From assembly GCA_017521605.1 (NCBI GenBank), contig JAFXCD010000064.1, forward strand, positions 1 through 32,592: a stretch of DNA of 32,592 nt, written 5' to 3'. The notes beneath the pieces are model-generated. The model ran no database searches. It saw nothing but the letters and a program-made list of their open reading frames with translations, and was not told the origin of the DNA. Positions 23,909 through 32,052 of this stretch are shown one piece after another. Every line of letters starts with the position of its first letter. The stretch's first letter is position 1. This DNA is from Lachnospiraceae bacterium. GTDB taxonomy: Bacteria > Bacillota > Clostridia > Lachnospirales > Lachnospiraceae. The position numbers and the translations under genes were made by a program.

Positions 23909-24283
23909 TTATAAGGTATGTAAATCTTCCAGCACGACCAAATACCCTTCCTCTTGTTTCAAAAAATCAATTTGAATAGTTAAATCATTGGAGGCTCCGT
24001 CTGTTGTCAAATCATAATCCATCCCATACCCACTACCATCATTATACCTGTAAATATCTACTCCTTGATTCTCTCTTTTTAGCTGTGCCGGATTATCAAC
24101 TTTTATTGCAGAACGCGATTCATCTAAATACTTAAGCGCCAATATTATGTCTTGTTCTGCCAATCGGCTACTATCAAATAATGTCAAAAAAGATGCATAG
24201 TTTTCTTCAGCTAATATGCTTAAAGCATGTTCTGCGAACGCTATAAATTGTTCTTGTTCTTTTCCTTTATCTACATATATCAT
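23909..24283 (-). CDS. Small hypothetical protein, possible immunity protein
   Basis: 124 residues, acidic. N-terminal helices (EQEQFIAFAEHALSILAEEN) are followed by a beta-rich C-terminus with GYGMDYDLTTDGASNDLTIQ and GYLVVLEDLHTL. I recall this C-terminal pattern from uncharacterised bacterial families (possibly DUF7668) but cannot confirm it. An AGGAG site precedes the ATG by 9-10 bases. Between other small genes of the cluster; no toxin partner seen. Confidence 0.65.
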   Translation of the reverse strand: MIYVDKGKEQEQFIAFAEHALSILAEENYASFLTLFDSSRLAEQDIILALKYLDESRSAIKVDNPAQLKRENQGVDIYRYNDGSGYGMDYDLTTDGASNDLTIQIDFLKQEEGYLVVLEDLHTL

Positions 24284-24322
24284 TGTATCGAGTCTCCTAC
24301 AGGTTCAACTAGCGTATTGTTT

Positions 24323-24649
24323 TTACCAATCTCGTTCTCCAAGGGCATCTTCTACATCTATACCAATATCAAACCACTGCAAAATATATTCTATCGTCTC
24401 AGCAATACTTTCTCTGGCAACTGTCTCTAATTCACTTTCGTTTTCTTCAAATTCAGCTTGCAAATCATTAATCGATAGCGCCATCTCATCAAACTTATTC
24501 TGTATTATTTCCAAATCTTTTTCTTCTGTTTCCAGAAAGGAAATAATATTTTGTACCAGTTCCTTAATTTTATCTACCAAAAAGTCAGGAAAATATCCAT
24601 CCCTATACATTGCAGCGAGCAATTCGTAATTCTCATCAAATTTTCTCAT
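24323..24649 (-). CDS. DUF5713-like protein
   Basis: 108 residues, helical and very acidic. The start (LLAAMYRDGYFPDFLVDKIK), middle (INDLQAEFEENESELETVAR) and end (EDALGERDW) match the pattern I know for DUF5713, an uncharacterised family found in immunity-like gene clusters. Cytoplasmic; no catalytic motif is apparent. Ribosome site AAGGAAG. Function unknown. Confidence 0.75.
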   Translation of the reverse strand: MRKFDENYELLAAMYRDGYFPDFLVDKIKELVQNIISFLETEEKDLEIIQNKFDEMALSINDLQAEFEENESELETVARESIAETIEYILQWFDIGIDVEDALGERDW

Positions 24650-24668
24650 ACATCAATTCTTCCTTTCT

Positions 24669-25028
24669 CTATAAGCTTCCGCAAGGAATACTTCCCTTTT
24701 CATAATAAGCAACCATTTTATCCAACCAGAAATCACTATATTCCAATAATCTCGCATCTGAAATTAAACCAAAATCATCCGATACATATCCAGCCAAATC
24801 ACTATCGTTCGTGAATTCATAAATCATTCGAAAAACTTGTTCTCTTAGTTTTGCATTATTCTCGCTTTCCATTTCCGAATAATTTGCCGCATTTTTCAAT
24901 GACTCAACTGCATTATAAACCCTGATCCATTCTGTATCAAACACCGCCAGCTCTCGATTATCCAGCAATTCATCAATATTCAAATTACTAAAATCTATTT
25001 GTTCTAAAACTTTAATTAATGTTTTCAT
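24669..25028 (-). CDS. Small acidic hypothetical protein
   Basis: 119 residues, helical, unassigned. Visible: LIKVLEQIDFSNLNIDELLD, TEWIRVYNAVESLKNAANYS, and EFTNDSDLAGYVSDDFGLIS. Size, charge and neighbours fit an immunity protein; no catalytic motif. Ribosome site AGAAGGG seven bases before the ATG. It is separated from the DUF5713-like gene by only 19 bases, so the two are probably co-transcribed. Confidence 0.65.
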   Translation of the reverse strand: MKTLIKVLEQIDFSNLNIDELLDNRELAVFDTEWIRVYNAVESLKNAANYSEMESENNAKLREQVFRMIYEFTNDSDLAGYVSDDFGLISDARLLEYSDFWLDKMVAYYEKGSIPCGSL

Positions 25029-25101
25029 TTTATACCCTTCTGTAATATACTAAACTCAATTTGGTACATGCGTATACATTCTTTATATTCCTGCGACTTA
25101 T

Positions 25102-25308
25102 CTAATCAAAATTTTCTATAGCATTATCTATATCTAAAAACTCTTTATATGATACCAAATAATTATACTTAAAATCTCTTTTATCATAATCTTTTTTTAC
25201 TATTTCTAAAATCCAATCCTTTTGTTCTTTTAACATATTCTCACCACAAGCTTTATAGGATGTATCCATCCTTTCATATCCAATATTATCCGGCCATATA
25301 TGTATCAT
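25102..25308 (-). CDS. Short hypothetical protein overlapping the DUF2262-like gene
   Basis: 68 residues at most. It overlaps the 3' end of the upstream gene by 23 bases. The start is uncertain: ATG at 25308 has only a poor ribosome site, and later ATGs (codons 14 and 25) are possible. The C-terminal half (EQKDWILEIVKKDYDKRDFK, SYKEFLDIDNAIENF) is acidic/helical like its neighbours. It may be an intact small immunity gene or a truncated remnant. Confidence 0.45.
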   Translation of the reverse strand: MIHIWPDNIGYERMDTSYKACGENMLKEQKDWILEIVKKDYDKRDFKYNYLVSYKEFLDIDNAIENFD

Positions 25309-26128
25309 CTATCCCTGTCTCAATATTTCCGCTGACAATAACCACATGTCCCCAGAACATATCATCATCGTCATAAAATATCTCGAAATTGCCATCCGTA
25401 CTCACACTAACCTCGCTGATACTCAATCGTTTAGCGAAACATTCTTGGGTAATCTCTTCAGCATTTTCATCTGCATCCAGGGCCCAATCATTAGCATTAT
25501 CCGTTAACTCCCCAGCCGCAAATTTCCTTGCCTTATCATCCCATACCTGACAATTAGCTATTAATTGTTTCCAAGTCTCTAATGCATCCTTTGCAGTTAC
25601 TGAACCTTCCTCATCCACATCCATATTTATGAGGCACGTTTCACCATTCCAATACCCTTCACCGGAAAACAAGCCTATAGATTTGTCCAACACCAACTTT
25701 TCACCGGTATCCAACTGAAGTAGCACCGGCTTACGAAACTCTGCAAGTATTTTTTCCAAACGCTCCTCACTACAATCACTTTCCAATACAGCTCTAACCC
25801 AAAGGGTATTACCACGAGGGATTTCCTCATTACCAAAAGCGAGAAATGGCAGAGACTCTTGTACGCGTAATCGATAAATGGTCTCACCCTGTAGATTAAA
25901 CACCTTATTATTTTTATTCTCCACGTCTGTCATTTGCCAGTTTAAGTTACACTTTTTTTCTGTCAGTTCACCTGTAGCCGTATCTACTACTGCCAAAACT
26001 GTTACAGATGCCTGCCAGAGCTTGTTCTCTCCCCAACGTGATGAACTGATACCTCCCTCTGTAAGCACCAGTACCTCTTTCTCTATCATATCGAATCTCT
26101 TTTCAAAATTTTCCCGCTCTTGACTCAT
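25286..26128 (-). CDS. DUF2262-domain protein
   Basis: 280 residues. N-terminal beta-rich half (about 20-135, WGENKLWQASVTVLAVVDTA and LPFLAFGNEEIPRGNTLWVR) and a C-terminal DUF2262-like half with CFAKRLSISEVSVSTDGNFE and FYDDDDMFWGHVVIVSGNI. The latter is the family's most conserved part. Such two-part proteins occur beside other immunity-like genes; the molecular role is unknown. The ribosome site is moderate (GAGGGCGG). First gene of the minus-strand cluster; I could not place a convincing promoter upstream. Confidence 0.75.
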   Translation of the reverse strand: MSQERENFEKRFDMIEKEVLVLTEGGISSSRWGENKLWQASVTVLAVVDTATGELTEKKCNLNWQMTDVENKNNKVFNLQGETIYRLRVQESLPFLAFGNEEIPRGNTLWVRAVLESDCSEERLEKILAEFRKPVLLQLDTGEKLVLDKSIGLFSGEGYWNGETCLINMDVDEEGSVTAKDALETWKQLIANCQVWDDKARKFAAGELTDNANDWALDADENAEEITQECFAKRLSISEVSVSTDGNFEIFYDDDDMFWGHVVIVSGNIETGIDDTYMAG

Positions 26129-27906: not shown

Positions 27907-28881
27907 CTACAAATATTTTTTCAATAAATTTAACTTCGTTCTGGTATCTGTATATACTATAGTGTTAAAAATAGATGTAGAAACCTTTCCTCTAAGTTCT
28001 TCGCAATTCTTTTCAAACAAACGAATGAATGCCAAGATTTTCTTCTTTGGACACTCCAATAATTTCATCATAAAGCTTATAAGAATCACATAATCAACTA
28101 TAGATTCAAATGTGATGTTACTAATTCCGGTTTCTGCACTTATACATTTAGCAATTCTTAAATTAACCTTACCTGTTTTAAATCGAGTATCGAAAATCGT
28201 ATTATTATGTGCAACAGCATTTCTTAAATCTTTTAAAGCATATACTATCAATGGCAACAATTTTCCATCTCGATCATAGGCAACCTTTATTCCCACACTT
28301 TTAGAAACCTTTTTTCCGGTATTTTGGTCTAAGCAATCTACAAGTGTGCCAAATTCACCAAGGCTTATTAACTCAAATATTGCCCATATAGGCAGCGGTT
28401 GGTCCTTGTCATAGTAATGATTCACTATAAATCGCTTACCATAATCTCTGGAAATAAGACTATATACTTTATTTCTGAGATTCATTCTCTTATTAATTGC
28501 TTTTTTATATTCATTACTACCTATCGGATATGCTTTGTAATCCGTTAATAATTTAGCATAAATATCTGCAAATCTTTTGCTTTTAGACTCTTCCAAAATG
28601 ACTTCTAAAACATAGTTTTTAAATGTAGTTTCCAAAAACATAATTTCCGGATAAAACATTGTCTTAATCGCCATATCAAAATCATAGATTGCCTGCACTT
28701 CATCAAAGGAATTGAACGCATATGTATTCGCCGGGTTATTATGATAACGATATCCCTTATATCCATGGAAATATCCCATATATCTAAGTTTTTTCTTATC
28801 GCCACTTCCAGAAATATTCAATCCTTTTACATCTCGCATATATGCCATTAACGCATTAATACTTTTAGGTTTCTTTTGCAT
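27907..28881 (-). CDS. Abi_2 family (AbiD/AbiF-type) abortive infection HEPN protein
   Basis: 324 residues, the family's usual length. N-terminal KPKSINALMAYMRDVKGLNI, the tyrosine-rich YFHGYKGYRYHN, and FDEVQAIYDFDMAIKTMFYP are typical of Abi_2 proteins. The HEPN ribonuclease motif R-x4-H is intact at R220-NAVA-H225. Members block phage growth by RNA cleavage and host shutdown. It has its own promoter (TTGACA-18-TAGAAT) and an AGGAG site 10 bases before the ATG. A GC-rich structured element follows the stop. HEPN Abi proteins are proposed relatives of the Cas13 nuclease fold. Confidence 0.88.
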   Translation of the reverse strand: MQKKPKSINALMAYMRDVKGLNISGSGDKKKLRYMGYFHGYKGYRYHNNPANTYAFNSFDEVQAIYDFDMAIKTMFYPEIMFLETTFKNYVLEVILEESKSKRFADIYAKLLTDYKAYPIGSNEYKKAINKRMNLRNKVYSLISRDYGKRFIVNHYYDKDQPLPIWAIFELISLGEFGTLVDCLDQNTGKKVSKSVGIKVAYDRDGKLLPLIVYALKDLRNAVAHNNTIFDTRFKTGKVNLRIAKCISAETGISNITFESIVDYVILISFMMKLLECPKKKILAFIRLFEKNCEELRGKVSTSIFNTIVYTDTRTKLNLLKKYL

Positions 28882-28966: not shown

Positions 28967-29530
28967 CTACATAAACTCCCCTTCCGTCCAATCAAACAAA
29001 TAATCCGGATCATTCCAATACTTTATATCCCCATACTCCCGCTCATACACACCGAATTTCTGCCTTGCTTTCTGTAGCGTCTTTTCATACTCTATATGAT
29101 TAAAAGGACTATAAAGTTCCGCCTCTTCTTCACTGCATTCCACAGTACGCAGGTGCGGTTTCTTATCCGGAGACATAGGGTTCACTTCATACACCCACTT
29201 CACCGGTTTCGGATGACACCGGCTATGTGCGTAAACCGTCTCAAAATATTCCTTCCAGGAATACTGCCTCCCGTATTCATCATAAATCTCCAAATCCGCC
29301 TGATGCTCCCAGTAAAACGCCTCCAGCTTCTGAAAACTATCAAACGCCCCATGCTTCTGAAACAAGGGCCGCCATCCGCAACTTAATTTATTCAGGTGAC
29401 ACCGATAACCAAGATATGGCTCATCCACGATGGTATACTCCTCGCCAAGTACACCCCACTCCGACTTCTTGGCAAAACAAGTCTGCATCAGTTCCTTATT
29501 CCTGCTCATAAAATAATAATTGGTTCCCAT
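28967..29530 (-). CDS. MGTNYY-type hypothetical protein
   Basis: 187 residues. The N-terminus MGTNYYFMSRNKELMQTCF, followed by YLGYRCHLNKLSCGWRPLFQ, resembles a family of small phage and mobile-element proteins that begin MGTNYY and carry paired Cys and a conserved HxGK/SxGW stretch. The C-terminal 80 residues (WVYEVNPMSPDKKPHLRTVE) are unassigned. No membrane segment. A strong GGAGAGGAGG site precedes the ATG. Between the XRE terminator and the Abi promoter; whether it joins either system is unknown. Confidence 0.7.
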   Translation of the reverse strand: MGTNYYFMSRNKELMQTCFAKKSEWGVLGEEYTIVDEPYLGYRCHLNKLSCGWRPLFQKHGAFDSFQKLEAFYWEHQADLEIYDEYGRQYSWKEYFETVYAHSRCHPKPVKWVYEVNPMSPDKKPHLRTVECSEEEAELYSPFNHIEYEKTLQKARQKFGVYEREYGDIKYWNDPDYLFDWTEGEFM

Positions 29531-29645: not shown

Positions 29646-29957
29646 TTATGCTGCCCTCTGCAAGCGTTGGGCGTAGTATAAAAGGCGCTTGTCCTTCGGC
29701 TCCTGCGCCACCTTATACAAGCCTATATTCATAGGCTGCCCCTGCAAAACCAGAAGTTCTTCCATATGCACACCAAGAAGAATGCTTAAGGCATAAAGTT
29801 TTTCTACCGTTGGCAGATTCTGACCTTTAAACCAACGATAAATCGGTTGAGGACAGGAGAGGTTTAAATACTCTTGAATGTATTTTACATCAAAGCCTGC
29901 CATCTTGAACATGAGTTTTAGTTTTTGTCCGGTTCGTTGTTGGTCGATGGGGTGCAT
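29646..29957 (-). CDS. XRE-family helix-turn-helix regulator
   Basis: 103 residues. The HTH spans about 10-72: TGQKLKLMFKMAGFDVKYIQ, EYLNLSCPQPIYRWFKGQNL, PTVEKLYALSILLGVHMEEL, the last of these being the standard XRE end. A short basic tail follows. It begins 21 bases after the GHKL ATPase stop, with AAAGGAG before the ATG, so it is the third gene of that operon. It is the natural candidate to bind the palindrome at the operon promoter (32011-32024), which is inference. Clostridial XRE proteins of this shape also occur alone. Confidence 0.88.
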   Translation of the reverse strand: MHPIDQQRTGQKLKLMFKMAGFDVKYIQEYLNLSCPQPIYRWFKGQNLPTVEKLYALSILLGVHMEELLVLQGQPMNIGLYKVAQEPKDKRLLYYAQRLQRAA

Positions 29958-29978
29958 GGTGGGGCTCCTTTCGTTTAT

Positions 29979-30992
29979 TTAAAATAATCCTCTTGAAGAT
30001 TTTGACGCTGAATGGATTGTATAATCTTTACTTCTGGCCAATTCCTCACCTCTCTTTAAAATGTCTCTTCTCACTTGATCATAATTGACATTTTTTGAGG
30101 GGCGTATTCTAATTTGAATTGCCGTACCATCCATATGCGTATCATATTTTGTCTGCTTGATTTCACCATTTTCTTTTGCAATACGAATAGCAGAATCTCC
30201 ACTTGCAATTATAAAACTAGCTCCTAATTCAGCACACATTTGACTTACCATATATAATCCATATCCCGAATTTTGCCAATCTCCTGTACCGATACTTCTT
30301 CGAGTGCTCGAAAATGTTCCCGAAACACCGGGTTCCAATGCTAATTGCAATGCTTCATAATCATTCTTATACAACTTCCTAAATTCATAACTATCTGCAA
30401 GACTCTTTGAAATTCCAACTCCTTCATCTAGAATAGCAAGTTCCACCAAATCATAACTTGGCCAATATTGAGCACAATACCAAATAGTTCTAGATTGACT
30501 ATGTTCTGGTATATTGCGTAACAACTCTCTAATAACAAAAGTCATCCAATTCTGAAATTCTTTATCTTCTCTACATAAAACTTTTGACATTTCCTTTGAC
30601 TTTTTTTCTATCGTTTCTTGAATATAATCTAGATTTTCATGACTTTCAGTATATAAATCCTCGATACTTAATTTCGTAATGCAGCTATAATTAGCATTCC
30701 CTCGCGAATATTCAACATCTGCTCCCAGATTAATTCCACAAGCATTATAGAACTTCATATATTCAGCATATCTATTATTGCAATTACGTGCTATAAACTG
30801 CAAATTTCTATTTTTCTTTCGCATATTCCTTATTGCAGTTGATACCATCAACATCGGAAACGGATCACAATTTCCTACTCTGTTAAAATCAATTTCTATA
30901 ATTGTATCATTATCTCTTACCACATAACTATTGACCTTTTGGCAAAAATCCATAGCCGCACTGTAATTTAAATCCGGAACATGAAATACCAT
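29979..30992 (-). CDS. STAS-like/GHKL ATPase protein
   Basis: 337 residues, cytoplasmic. An N-terminal STAS-like or anti-sigma-antagonist-like fold (about 1-110; TIIEIDFNRVGNCDPFPMLM) is followed by a GHKL (HATPase_c) domain. ATP-site motifs: N box E156-L-L-R-N160, G1 box D189-E-G-V-G-I, and G2 box SGYGLYMVSQMCAELG near 245. The lid region (LEPGVSGTFSSTRRSIGTGD) looks intact. No histidine-kinase phosphoacceptor helix is present, so it is a stand-alone ATPase or switch kinase. AAGGAGG lies in the 18-base gap after the nuclease gene. ATP-dependent control of the nuclease is inferred from the pairing. Confidence 0.85.
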   Translation of the reverse strand: MVFHVPDLNYSAAMDFCQKVNSYVVRDNDTIIEIDFNRVGNCDPFPMLMVSTAIRNMRKKNRNLQFIARNCNNRYAEYMKFYNACGINLGADVEYSRGNANYSCITKLSIEDLYTESHENLDYIQETIEKKSKEMSKVLCREDKEFQNWMTFVIRELLRNIPEHSQSRTIWYCAQYWPSYDLVELAILDEGVGISKSLADSYEFRKLYKNDYEALQLALEPGVSGTFSSTRRSIGTGDWQNSGYGLYMVSQMCAELGASFIIASGDSAIRIAKENGEIKQTKYDTHMDGTAIQIRIRPSKNVNYDQVRRDILKRGEELARSKDYTIHSASKSSRGLF

Positions 30993-31010
30993 ATATCCTC
31001 CTTATTTTCT

Positions 31011-31991
31011 CTACTCCGCATCCTCTTTCGCCACTGGAATATATACCATCTTCAACGGGATCATTTTGCGATACTTTTCACTTAATTTGTCATAATATTT
31101 CAAAATCAGTTCTACCAGTTCAGTCCCATTGATACCACGGATAATCGGTGTATTTTCAAGATATTTCTGAGCATTTTTTGTATAGTTAGAAAGCGTCACA
31201 AACAAGCCATAATCACCCTCACGCATTGCACCCTTTAAGGATTGAATAGTAGATTCCTTAATATCACTATCCTGACTCTTTACCTGTACCATAATACGTG
31301 GCGGAAGCTCATCCTTATAAGCAACAATATCTATACCGCTATCTCCTCCATGTGCAGAAACAGTTGTGCGATAACCCATTGCCTGCAAAAGGTCAGCAAT
31401 AAAATCTTCCAAATCATATCCTTTCAGATTTTTGCTCAACTCTTTTAAAATAAAATCCTTGGTACTTTCAATGATTTCATCCGCAGTAGCTGCTACCGTT
31501 TCATCTTCCTCTACTGATTCTGTCACAAAATTCTTATCAATTGCAGCCAAGAATTCGTCTGCATAATTTTTAACTATAAAAAAAGATAATGCCGAACCGA
31601 CTTCATATAATGCACCTTGAGAAAAGACCATTCGTGGCAAATGCTTGAGCCACTTTACCTTTCGCTGTTGCACATATTCATCCGACGAAGGAACATACTC
31701 ATATTCTCCTTCAATAATTCCAATATTAATCTTACGGTCAATTTTAGAAGGAAACACAACATAATCTCCAATTTTTGCTTCATGCATAAAACGAAATAGC
31801 ATACCAGCACTAGTGGGAATACTTCCTTTCTTTGCGTCCGGATAACATTTCTCATAATGAGCCTTAAATGCTTCGCGCGTTGCATCCAACTCCGAAAGAT
31901 TACCAAATGTTTTCCAGCCAATAGCTATAACATTATTATTCAGAAACAAATTGTCATTCATTGTATGTATGCCCCATACTGTATTTGCCAT
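31011..31991 (-). CDS. Mrr-type restriction endonuclease with N-terminal PUA/EVE-like domain
   Basis: 326 residues. Residues 1-110 look like a PUA/EVE-type reader (TVWGIHTMNDNLF, VIAIGWKTFGNL, FRFMHEAKIGDYVVFPSKID, INIGIIEGEYEYV); such domains often read modified bases. Residues 185-300 form an Mrr_cat PD-(D/E)xK nuclease: GYDLEDFIADLLQAMGY, HGGDSGIDI with D217/D221, and Q236-V-K238. This architecture suggests modification-dependent (type IV-like) restriction. The start is the ATG at 31991, because AGGAGA sits between it and the upstream ATG at 32006. First gene of the operon, with a strong promoter and palindrome upstream. Confidence 0.88.
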   Translation of the reverse strand: MANTVWGIHTMNDNLFLNNNVIAIGWKTFGNLSELDATREAFKAHYEKCYPDAKKGSIPTSAGMLFRFMHEAKIGDYVVFPSKIDRKINIGIIEGEYEYVPSSDEYVQQRKVKWLKHLPRMVFSQGALYEVGSALSFFIVKNYADEFLAAIDKNFVTESVEEDETVAATADEIIESTKDFILKELSKNLKGYDLEDFIADLLQAMGYRTTVSAHGGDSGIDIVAYKDELPPRIMVQVKSQDSDIKESTIQSLKGAMREGDYGLFVTLSNYTKNAQKYLENTPIIRGINGTELVELILKYYDKLSEKYRKMIPLKMVYIPVAKEDAE

Positions 31992-32010
31992 AATATCTCT
32001 CCTCATAGTT

Positions 32011-32052
32011 TTTTGTTAACAAAATTATAAACTTTTAACATATATTTATCAA
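32011..32052 (-). promoter_or_regulatory. Promoter of the Mrr-GHKL-XRE operon with 14-base palindrome
   Basis: Minus-strand -35 TTGATA (32047-32052), 17 bases, perfect -10 TATAAT (32024-32029). A perfect palindrome TTTTGTTAACAAAA (32011-32024) covers the expected transcription start, the right place for a repressor such as the operon's own XRE protein. Confidence 0.75.

Follow-up and report, generated by a model that had tools for sequence, protein, structure and literature searches.

A putative STAS-GHKL kinase of the CapK/VapK superfamily without a neighbouring substrate gene, in a probable defence island of a Lachnospiraceae bacterium

CapK and VapK are kinases each accompanied by a gene for its STAS substrate (Chambers et al., EMBO J 2026, PMC13373217). 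In the part of that report on which we draw here, CapK carries an N-terminal helix-turn-helix (HTH) domain, capS follows in 443 of 443 cases, and the capKS pair, found beside diverse immune systems, lies directly downstream of restriction-modification (R-M) systems in 88 of the 443; the single-stranded DNA (ssDNA) trigger of CapK is predicted to bind between the STAS and GHKL domains, and the aromatic ssDNA-stacking residue is W68 in CapK and F54 in VapK (PMC13373217). Here we consider a relative of these kinases encoded on a contig of a Lachnospiraceae bacterium (JAFXCD010000064.1, assembly GCA_017521605.1), the whole analysed stretch of which, 32,592 nucleotides, is called the window below. 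Three genes on its minus strand encode an Mrr-type restriction nuclease with an N-terminal EVE/YTH-like domain (31011..31991), a STAS-GHKL protein of 337 amino acids (29979..30992) and a small XRE-type regulator of 103 amino acids, probably accessory (29646..29957). They had been read as a possible undescribed defence system, with an ATPase that could gate the nuclease. We favour instead, at a probability of roughly 0.6, a small defence island of stacked, independently mobile modules under one promoter. The unreported part of it is the kinase branch, a distinct one with a kinase and without a STAS substrate gene, which we call solo.

The evidence that carries this reading is the lack of linkage among the three genes. 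None of 18 other nuclease loci holds the ATPase gene, and none of 20 other ATPase loci holds the nuclease gene, within flanks of about 1.5 kb or less for loci L157-L159 (L numbers denote the compared loci) and flanks that end near the gene on one side for some others. The original prediction had itself named rarity of this neighbourhood in other genomes as evidence against a single system, and these counts go against the trio, which is not a conserved system; the idea of an ATPase gating the nuclease finds no support either. The small XRE regulator that had been called is present (PF01381 HTH_3, 24.6 bits), and no relative of it was found at E <= 1e-3 in the 20 kinase loci or the 18 nuclease loci; three weaker relatives lie in its own genome. 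The genus and family counts are in line with separate modules. Relatives of the kinase are rare. Including the window's own genome, 6 of the 138 genomes sampled from the genus carry the nuclease and 1 carries the kinase, which leaves none among the 137 others; for the family the counts are 8 of 397 and 1 of 397, plus one short kinase match at 5.4e-4 among the 396 other sampled genomes. At the order level, 145 other genomes gave one shorter protein without the STAS part, and at the phylum level 397 other genomes gave no solo kinase at 1e-20. Two further nucleases from the genus, at 94% protein identity, stand among different neighbours, and one of them lies beside the Wadjet genes JetD/JetC; the DNA identity (88%) with this Wadjet-side locus stops at 30993, immediately ahead of the start codon of the kinase gene. 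The GC fractions of the three genes, 0.37 for the nuclease, 0.33 for the kinase and 0.44 for the XRE gene, point in the same direction.

With its STAS-GHKL build, the ATPase belongs to the CapK/VapK kinase superfamily, and the label of a CapK/VapK-type kinase fits it better than that of a MutL/MORC-like GHKL gate. A STAS-like part (about residues 1-96) is followed by a GHKL domain (about 97-296) and a C-terminal tail (about 297-337), in which G315, A319 and S330 are invariant in the solo branch. The SpoIIAB-like GHKL domain is intact, with its E...N box and DxGxG, GxG and GT motifs; N160 and D189, on which the earlier argument for an active enzyme rested, are kept in 18 of 18 aligned solo sequences, window included, as are the ATP-binding motifs, and in a structure comparison the anti-sigma kinase SpoIIAB comes out as the best match. 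Pfam STAS gives no match at 0.05 in the window protein itself, and the STAS-like N-terminus that had been proposed for it is borne out through its relatives: in a profile comparison the solo family aligns at 99.9% over window residues 1-304 (270 columns) with kinases paired with a DUF4325 gene, two of which match Pfam STAS above the cut-off, and the profile of these paired kinases matches solved STAS domains (TM1442, 0.0015). One member of the profile-matched group stands in a vapKSC-type operon of a Deinococcus plasmid, and the STAS gene of this operon matches Escherichia VapS 9z7o at 3.8e-9. A scan with a domain library found no HTH domain in the window protein.

The solo proteins form a branch of their own. 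In a 15-row tree, nine of them, window included, split from six DUF4325-linked kinases with a branch support of 99/98; the order among the six is unsure because of their long branches. The nine were drawn from 18 solo sequences, with a broken copy (L026) and a protein lacking the STAS part (L037) in neither the tree nor the 18, and the DUF4325-paired loci were picked after their annotation had been seen, the weaker matches H10 and H14-H18 and the short match L006/L035 being left out. A profile of the partner STAS proteins found no STAS/DUF4325 substrate gene in the 20 other solo loci or the window, its best chance matches there (0.086 and 0.51) falling on short chance open reading frames (ORFs); it does find a partner in each of the 6 paired loci, five of these having trained it. 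Pfam DUF4325 likewise has no match in the window's own genome, which is 93% complete. Because no STAS substrate gene neighbours it, we count the solo protein among the relatives of CapK and VapK and give it neither name.

Several residues set the branch apart. R159, W177, P221, W239, G315, A319 and S330, among others, are shared by 18 of 18 solo sequences and by 0 of 5 paired kinases at the aligned positions, and 46-59 residues follow the last motif in solo proteins as compared with 21-31 in four of the five paired kinases and 47 in the fifth. On our own reading of the motifs, the phosphorylated Ser of CapS/VapS would correspond to P44, which is invariant in the STAS domain of solo proteins, and for this reason the domain is probably not itself the substrate; the same position is Pro in three of the five paired kinases too. 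The ssDNA-stacking aromatic residue of CapK lacks a clear counterpart in the window protein: at the aligned position, in an alignment that holds the Deinococcus kinase (Trp53) but not the published CapK/VapK sequences, the window has Asn41, though 7 of 18 solo sequences have Phe or Trp; Phe45, four residues past Asn41, is invariant in the solo proteins. A kinase activity, a trigger, a target and a defence function are inferred for the branch, whose members are probably one-gene defences or sensors.

The DUF4325-linked kinases show some arrangements of their own. A Nostoc plasmid (L025:1914-3155) encodes a STAS-GHKL kinase with a C-terminally fused DUF4325, that is, a kinase and its likely substrate in one chain, and this fusion protein is one of the six DUF4325-linked rows of the tree. 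The vapKSC-type operon of Deinococcus gobiensis plasmid P5 (L147:2054-4406) has a separate HTH gene ahead of it. Pairs of a CapK-like kinase and a DUF4325-type gene are also carried by Bacteroides, Streptococcus and Marinitoga phages (L027:5587-6830, L146, L148, L149, L150), several of them near an integrase or lysin gene.

In wider collections, solo kinases turn up in Anabaena and three Lachnospiraceae records, in phages and viral contigs, and on Phaeobacter, Bradyrhizobium and Acinetobacter plasmids. The 20 kinase loci have 39 immediate neighbours (ORFs of at least 90 amino acids), of which 29 were scanned against PADLOC, with 5 strong matches, 6 weak generic ones and 18 without any. The strong matches, above 240 bits and in favour of a defence island, fall in 5 of the 20 loci: GajA with GajB behind it (L003), a type II methyltransferase with a restriction endonuclease (L038), a short prokaryotic Argonaute (pAgo) with its REase-PNTD partner on the Bradyrhizobium plasmid (L022:6892-11721), PDC-S36 at a contig end (L043), and SduA, which lies 92 bp before a kinase copy broken by an insertion sequence (L026). 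The arrangements are co-directional, divergent (over shared intergenic regions of 213 bp beside Gabija and 265 bp beside the type II R-M system) and convergent (beside pAgo and PDC-S36); in the remaining loci the kinase stands mostly as a single gene, in a phage, a plasmid or a chromosome, with phage, plasmid or housekeeping genes around it. Two of the phage settings resemble cargo slots, in which phages related to two kinase carriers have other defence candidates. In the variable slot between a DNA polymerase gene and a VRR-NUC gene (L058-L137), the solo kinase is present in 2 of 76 related phage loci, a TIR gene in 19 of 76 (the tested representative being PDC-S35) and a PAPS-reductase/BrxP-like gene in 2 of 76, together with many small ORFs of no assigned family; these counts come from the best 80 of 182 loci, 76 of which have both slot borders. 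Beside the terminase small subunit, the two-gene candidate PDC-M53AB takes the place of the kinase in 1 of 4 other loci (L054, with a subunit 94% identical).

The nuclease matches the PADLOC candidate PDC-S02 over its full length (PDLC04819 at 464 bits, covering residues 6-327 of 331 and model positions 1-332 of 334), and so this gene by itself is already a defence candidate. The full ORF spans 31011-32006 on the minus strand (331 amino acids), and the better start is at 31991 (326 amino acids, MANTVWG), directly after GAGGAGAG. Counted from that start, the proposed catalytic residues D221, Q236 and K238 are intact, and all 9 aligned sequences, the window's among them, share them. A medium-confidence predicted model has an EVE/YTH-like N-terminus and an MspJI-like C-terminal half; the protein is an Mrr-type nuclease, as proposed, its N-terminal domain is a candidate reader of modified DNA, and the enzyme would probably be modification-dependent and type IV-like. 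As a stand-alone module might, it keeps varied company: 11 of the 18 nuclease loci adjoin, or lie within a few genes of, other PADLOC defence genes (BREX, type I, IIG or III R-M, Wadjet, or Drt2 with AbiD), where L029, L030 and L160 had one neighbour each scanned, with no match, and L034 and L157-L159 lay outside the scan.

The description of the trio as an operon agrees with most of what we find. The gaps measure 18 and 21 bases, a good ribosome site of the purine-rich AAGGAGG or AAGGAG kind precedes each gene, and one strong sigma-70-like promoter, TTGATA-17-TATAAT, lies ahead of the nuclease gene on the minus strand (32024..32052) with 11 of 12 consensus positions; this is a consensus match only, and the AT-rich stretch has 18 promoter-like sites in all, only a mild excess over shuffles (11.2 +/- 4.0). 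The terminator of the earlier reading was not recovered, as the scan shows no intrinsic terminator directly behind the XRE gene; the two sole terminator-like sites (29337 and 29382; 1.0 +/- 1.0 in shuffles) lie about 260 bases past the gene, inside the next ORF. We infer that the three genes are probably co-transcribed.

In the island that we favour, the first module would be a stand-alone type IV-like enzyme, PDC-S02, the EVE/YTH-type domain of which would read modified DNA and the Mrr/MspJI-type domain cut it. The second would be a solo CapK/VapK-like STAS-GHKL kinase, with the STAS domain as a regulatory platform and the SpoIIAB-like domain binding ATP and phosphorylating a target; because no STAS/DUF4325 substrate gene lies beside the kinase, this target would be elsewhere or built in. 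Most likely the kinase would be an independent infection- or damage-responsive module and not a subunit of the nuclease, and the XRE gene would probably be a local regulator. A number of observations pull the other way. The short gaps and the one promoter make co-regulation likely, and this, together with the published position of capKS behind R-M systems (88 of 443, in the part of PMC13373217 used here), makes some coupling of the kinase with the nuclease possible. In L002, L003 and L037 the kinase has XRE-type genes at its side, as it has in L044 a gene that is CI-like in our own judgement, all of them of other families or in other orientations than the window XRE gene. The VapK-type kinase shares only 17% identity with the window protein. 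Finally, 15 of the 20 kinase loci have no scanned immediate neighbour with a strong defence match, the PADLOC neighbour counts carry no background control, and the kinase sample is small and partly made up of near-copies (L039/L045, L040/L041).

How much the kinase could do alone is a separate matter. We hold as a tentative possibility that a solo STAS-GHKL protein is a complete one-protein anti-phage defence, an infection-triggered kinase with its substrate built in or with a host or phage protein as substrate. The trigger would be ssDNA or another ligand in the STAS-GHKL groove, and a built-in substrate might be the C-terminal tail, with the branch-invariant Ser330 replacing the serine of CapS/VapS; alternatively, a phosphorylated host or phage protein would stop infection. 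If true, this would be the first single-gene member of the CapK/VapK kind, common to phages, plasmids and defence islands across several phyla.

The kinase might instead be a portable controller of the adjacent immune gene, as CapK is, sensing DNA damage or ssDNA and raising expression of the Mrr nuclease through a DNA-binding regulator, here perhaps the XRE protein. Its architecture is that of VapK, and of CapK minus the HTH domain, its neighbours include several unrelated defence systems, and it stands divergent over a shared intergenic region beside Gabija and beside type II R-M. We keep this explanation in play because capKS lies behind R-M systems in 88 of 443 cases in the cited part of PMC13373217 and because a regulator gene follows the kinase in the window. 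We consider it rather unlikely: no HTH domain was found in the protein and no CapS/DUF4325 partner in the 20 other loci, the window or its own genome, the kinase is convergent with pAgo and PDC-S36, it takes up lone phage positions between terminase or replication genes, and the window XRE gene is not conserved with it. A further explanation drops the immune role altogether and sees in the kinase a regulator that phages or plasmids carry and that acts on host physiology, modulating a sigma factor or a stress pathway in the manner of SpoIIAB/RsbW; mobile elements would have brought it into islands. The structural match to SpoIIAB, the carriage by phages, viral contigs and small plasmids, and the 15 loci without a strong defence neighbour all suit it; the spread over Bacillota, Cyanobacteriota, Alphaproteobacteria and Acinetobacter and the repeated defence neighbours do not, and we regard it as improbable. 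To our knowledge, these groups share no single SpoIIAB/RsbW-like sigma pathway. As for a dedicated three-part restriction system with an ATPase-gated nuclease, the operon-like spacing, the intact catalytic residues of both enzymes, the SduA gene before the broken kinase copy of L026, and VcSduA, in which, by the part of its description used here, a Shedu nuclease carries a fused GHKL ATPase (PMC12137116), would speak for it; the 0 of 18 and 0 of 20 loci make it very improbable.

The setting of the trio is defence-like, as had been proposed. An abortive infection protein of the Abi_2/AbiD family (PF07751, 4.9e-28; PADLOC AbiD, 4.5e-26) is encoded at 27907..28881 on the minus strand, outside the presumed operon, and the nuclease is itself a PADLOC candidate. 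Between the Abi_2 and XRE genes, 28967-29530 encodes a 187-amino-acid protein that has no Pfam, NCBIfam or PADLOC match at 0.05. Farther away, on the minus strand at 23909-26128, is a row of small proteins with DUF7668, DUF5713 and DUF2262/DUF7021 domains, which we take to resemble the immunity-type genes beside polymorphic toxins.

A kinase branch that has no substrate gene poses the question of what is phosphorylated, and whether the protein controls other immune genes or is itself a defence. The locus also advises caution, in that operon-like stacks in defence islands may hold parts with separate histories, as this one does, and not new multi-gene systems.

Set beside the described systems, the window protein shares with CapK and CapS the order of a STAS and then a SpoIIAB-like GHKL kinase domain, and the defence and R-M neighbours, and differs in having neither an N-terminal HTH nor a capS neighbour. 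VapK of VapKSC is likewise STAS-GHKL without HTH, whereas the window trio has neither VapS nor a VapC-like PIN gene, its other genes being the Mrr nuclease and the XRE regulator; the Deinococcus VapK-type kinase has 300 amino acids and the window protein, with its longer C-terminal tail, 337. In SpoIIAB no STAS domain is fused to the kinase, and a separate gene encodes the STAS partner, SpoIIAA, whereas the window protein carries one fused. VcSduA and restriction ATPases of the MutL/MORC type also link a GHKL domain with a PD-(D/E)xK-type nuclease; in VcSduA the two are fused, whereas the window GHKL is separate, SpoIIAB-like and STAS-bearing, with no fixed nuclease partner. The nuclease model resembles the modification-dependent enzymes VcaM4I, MspJI and AspBHI in its YTH/EVE-like N-terminus and MspJI-like C-terminus; VcaM4I has a different nuclease domain behind its reader and MspJI a different reader.
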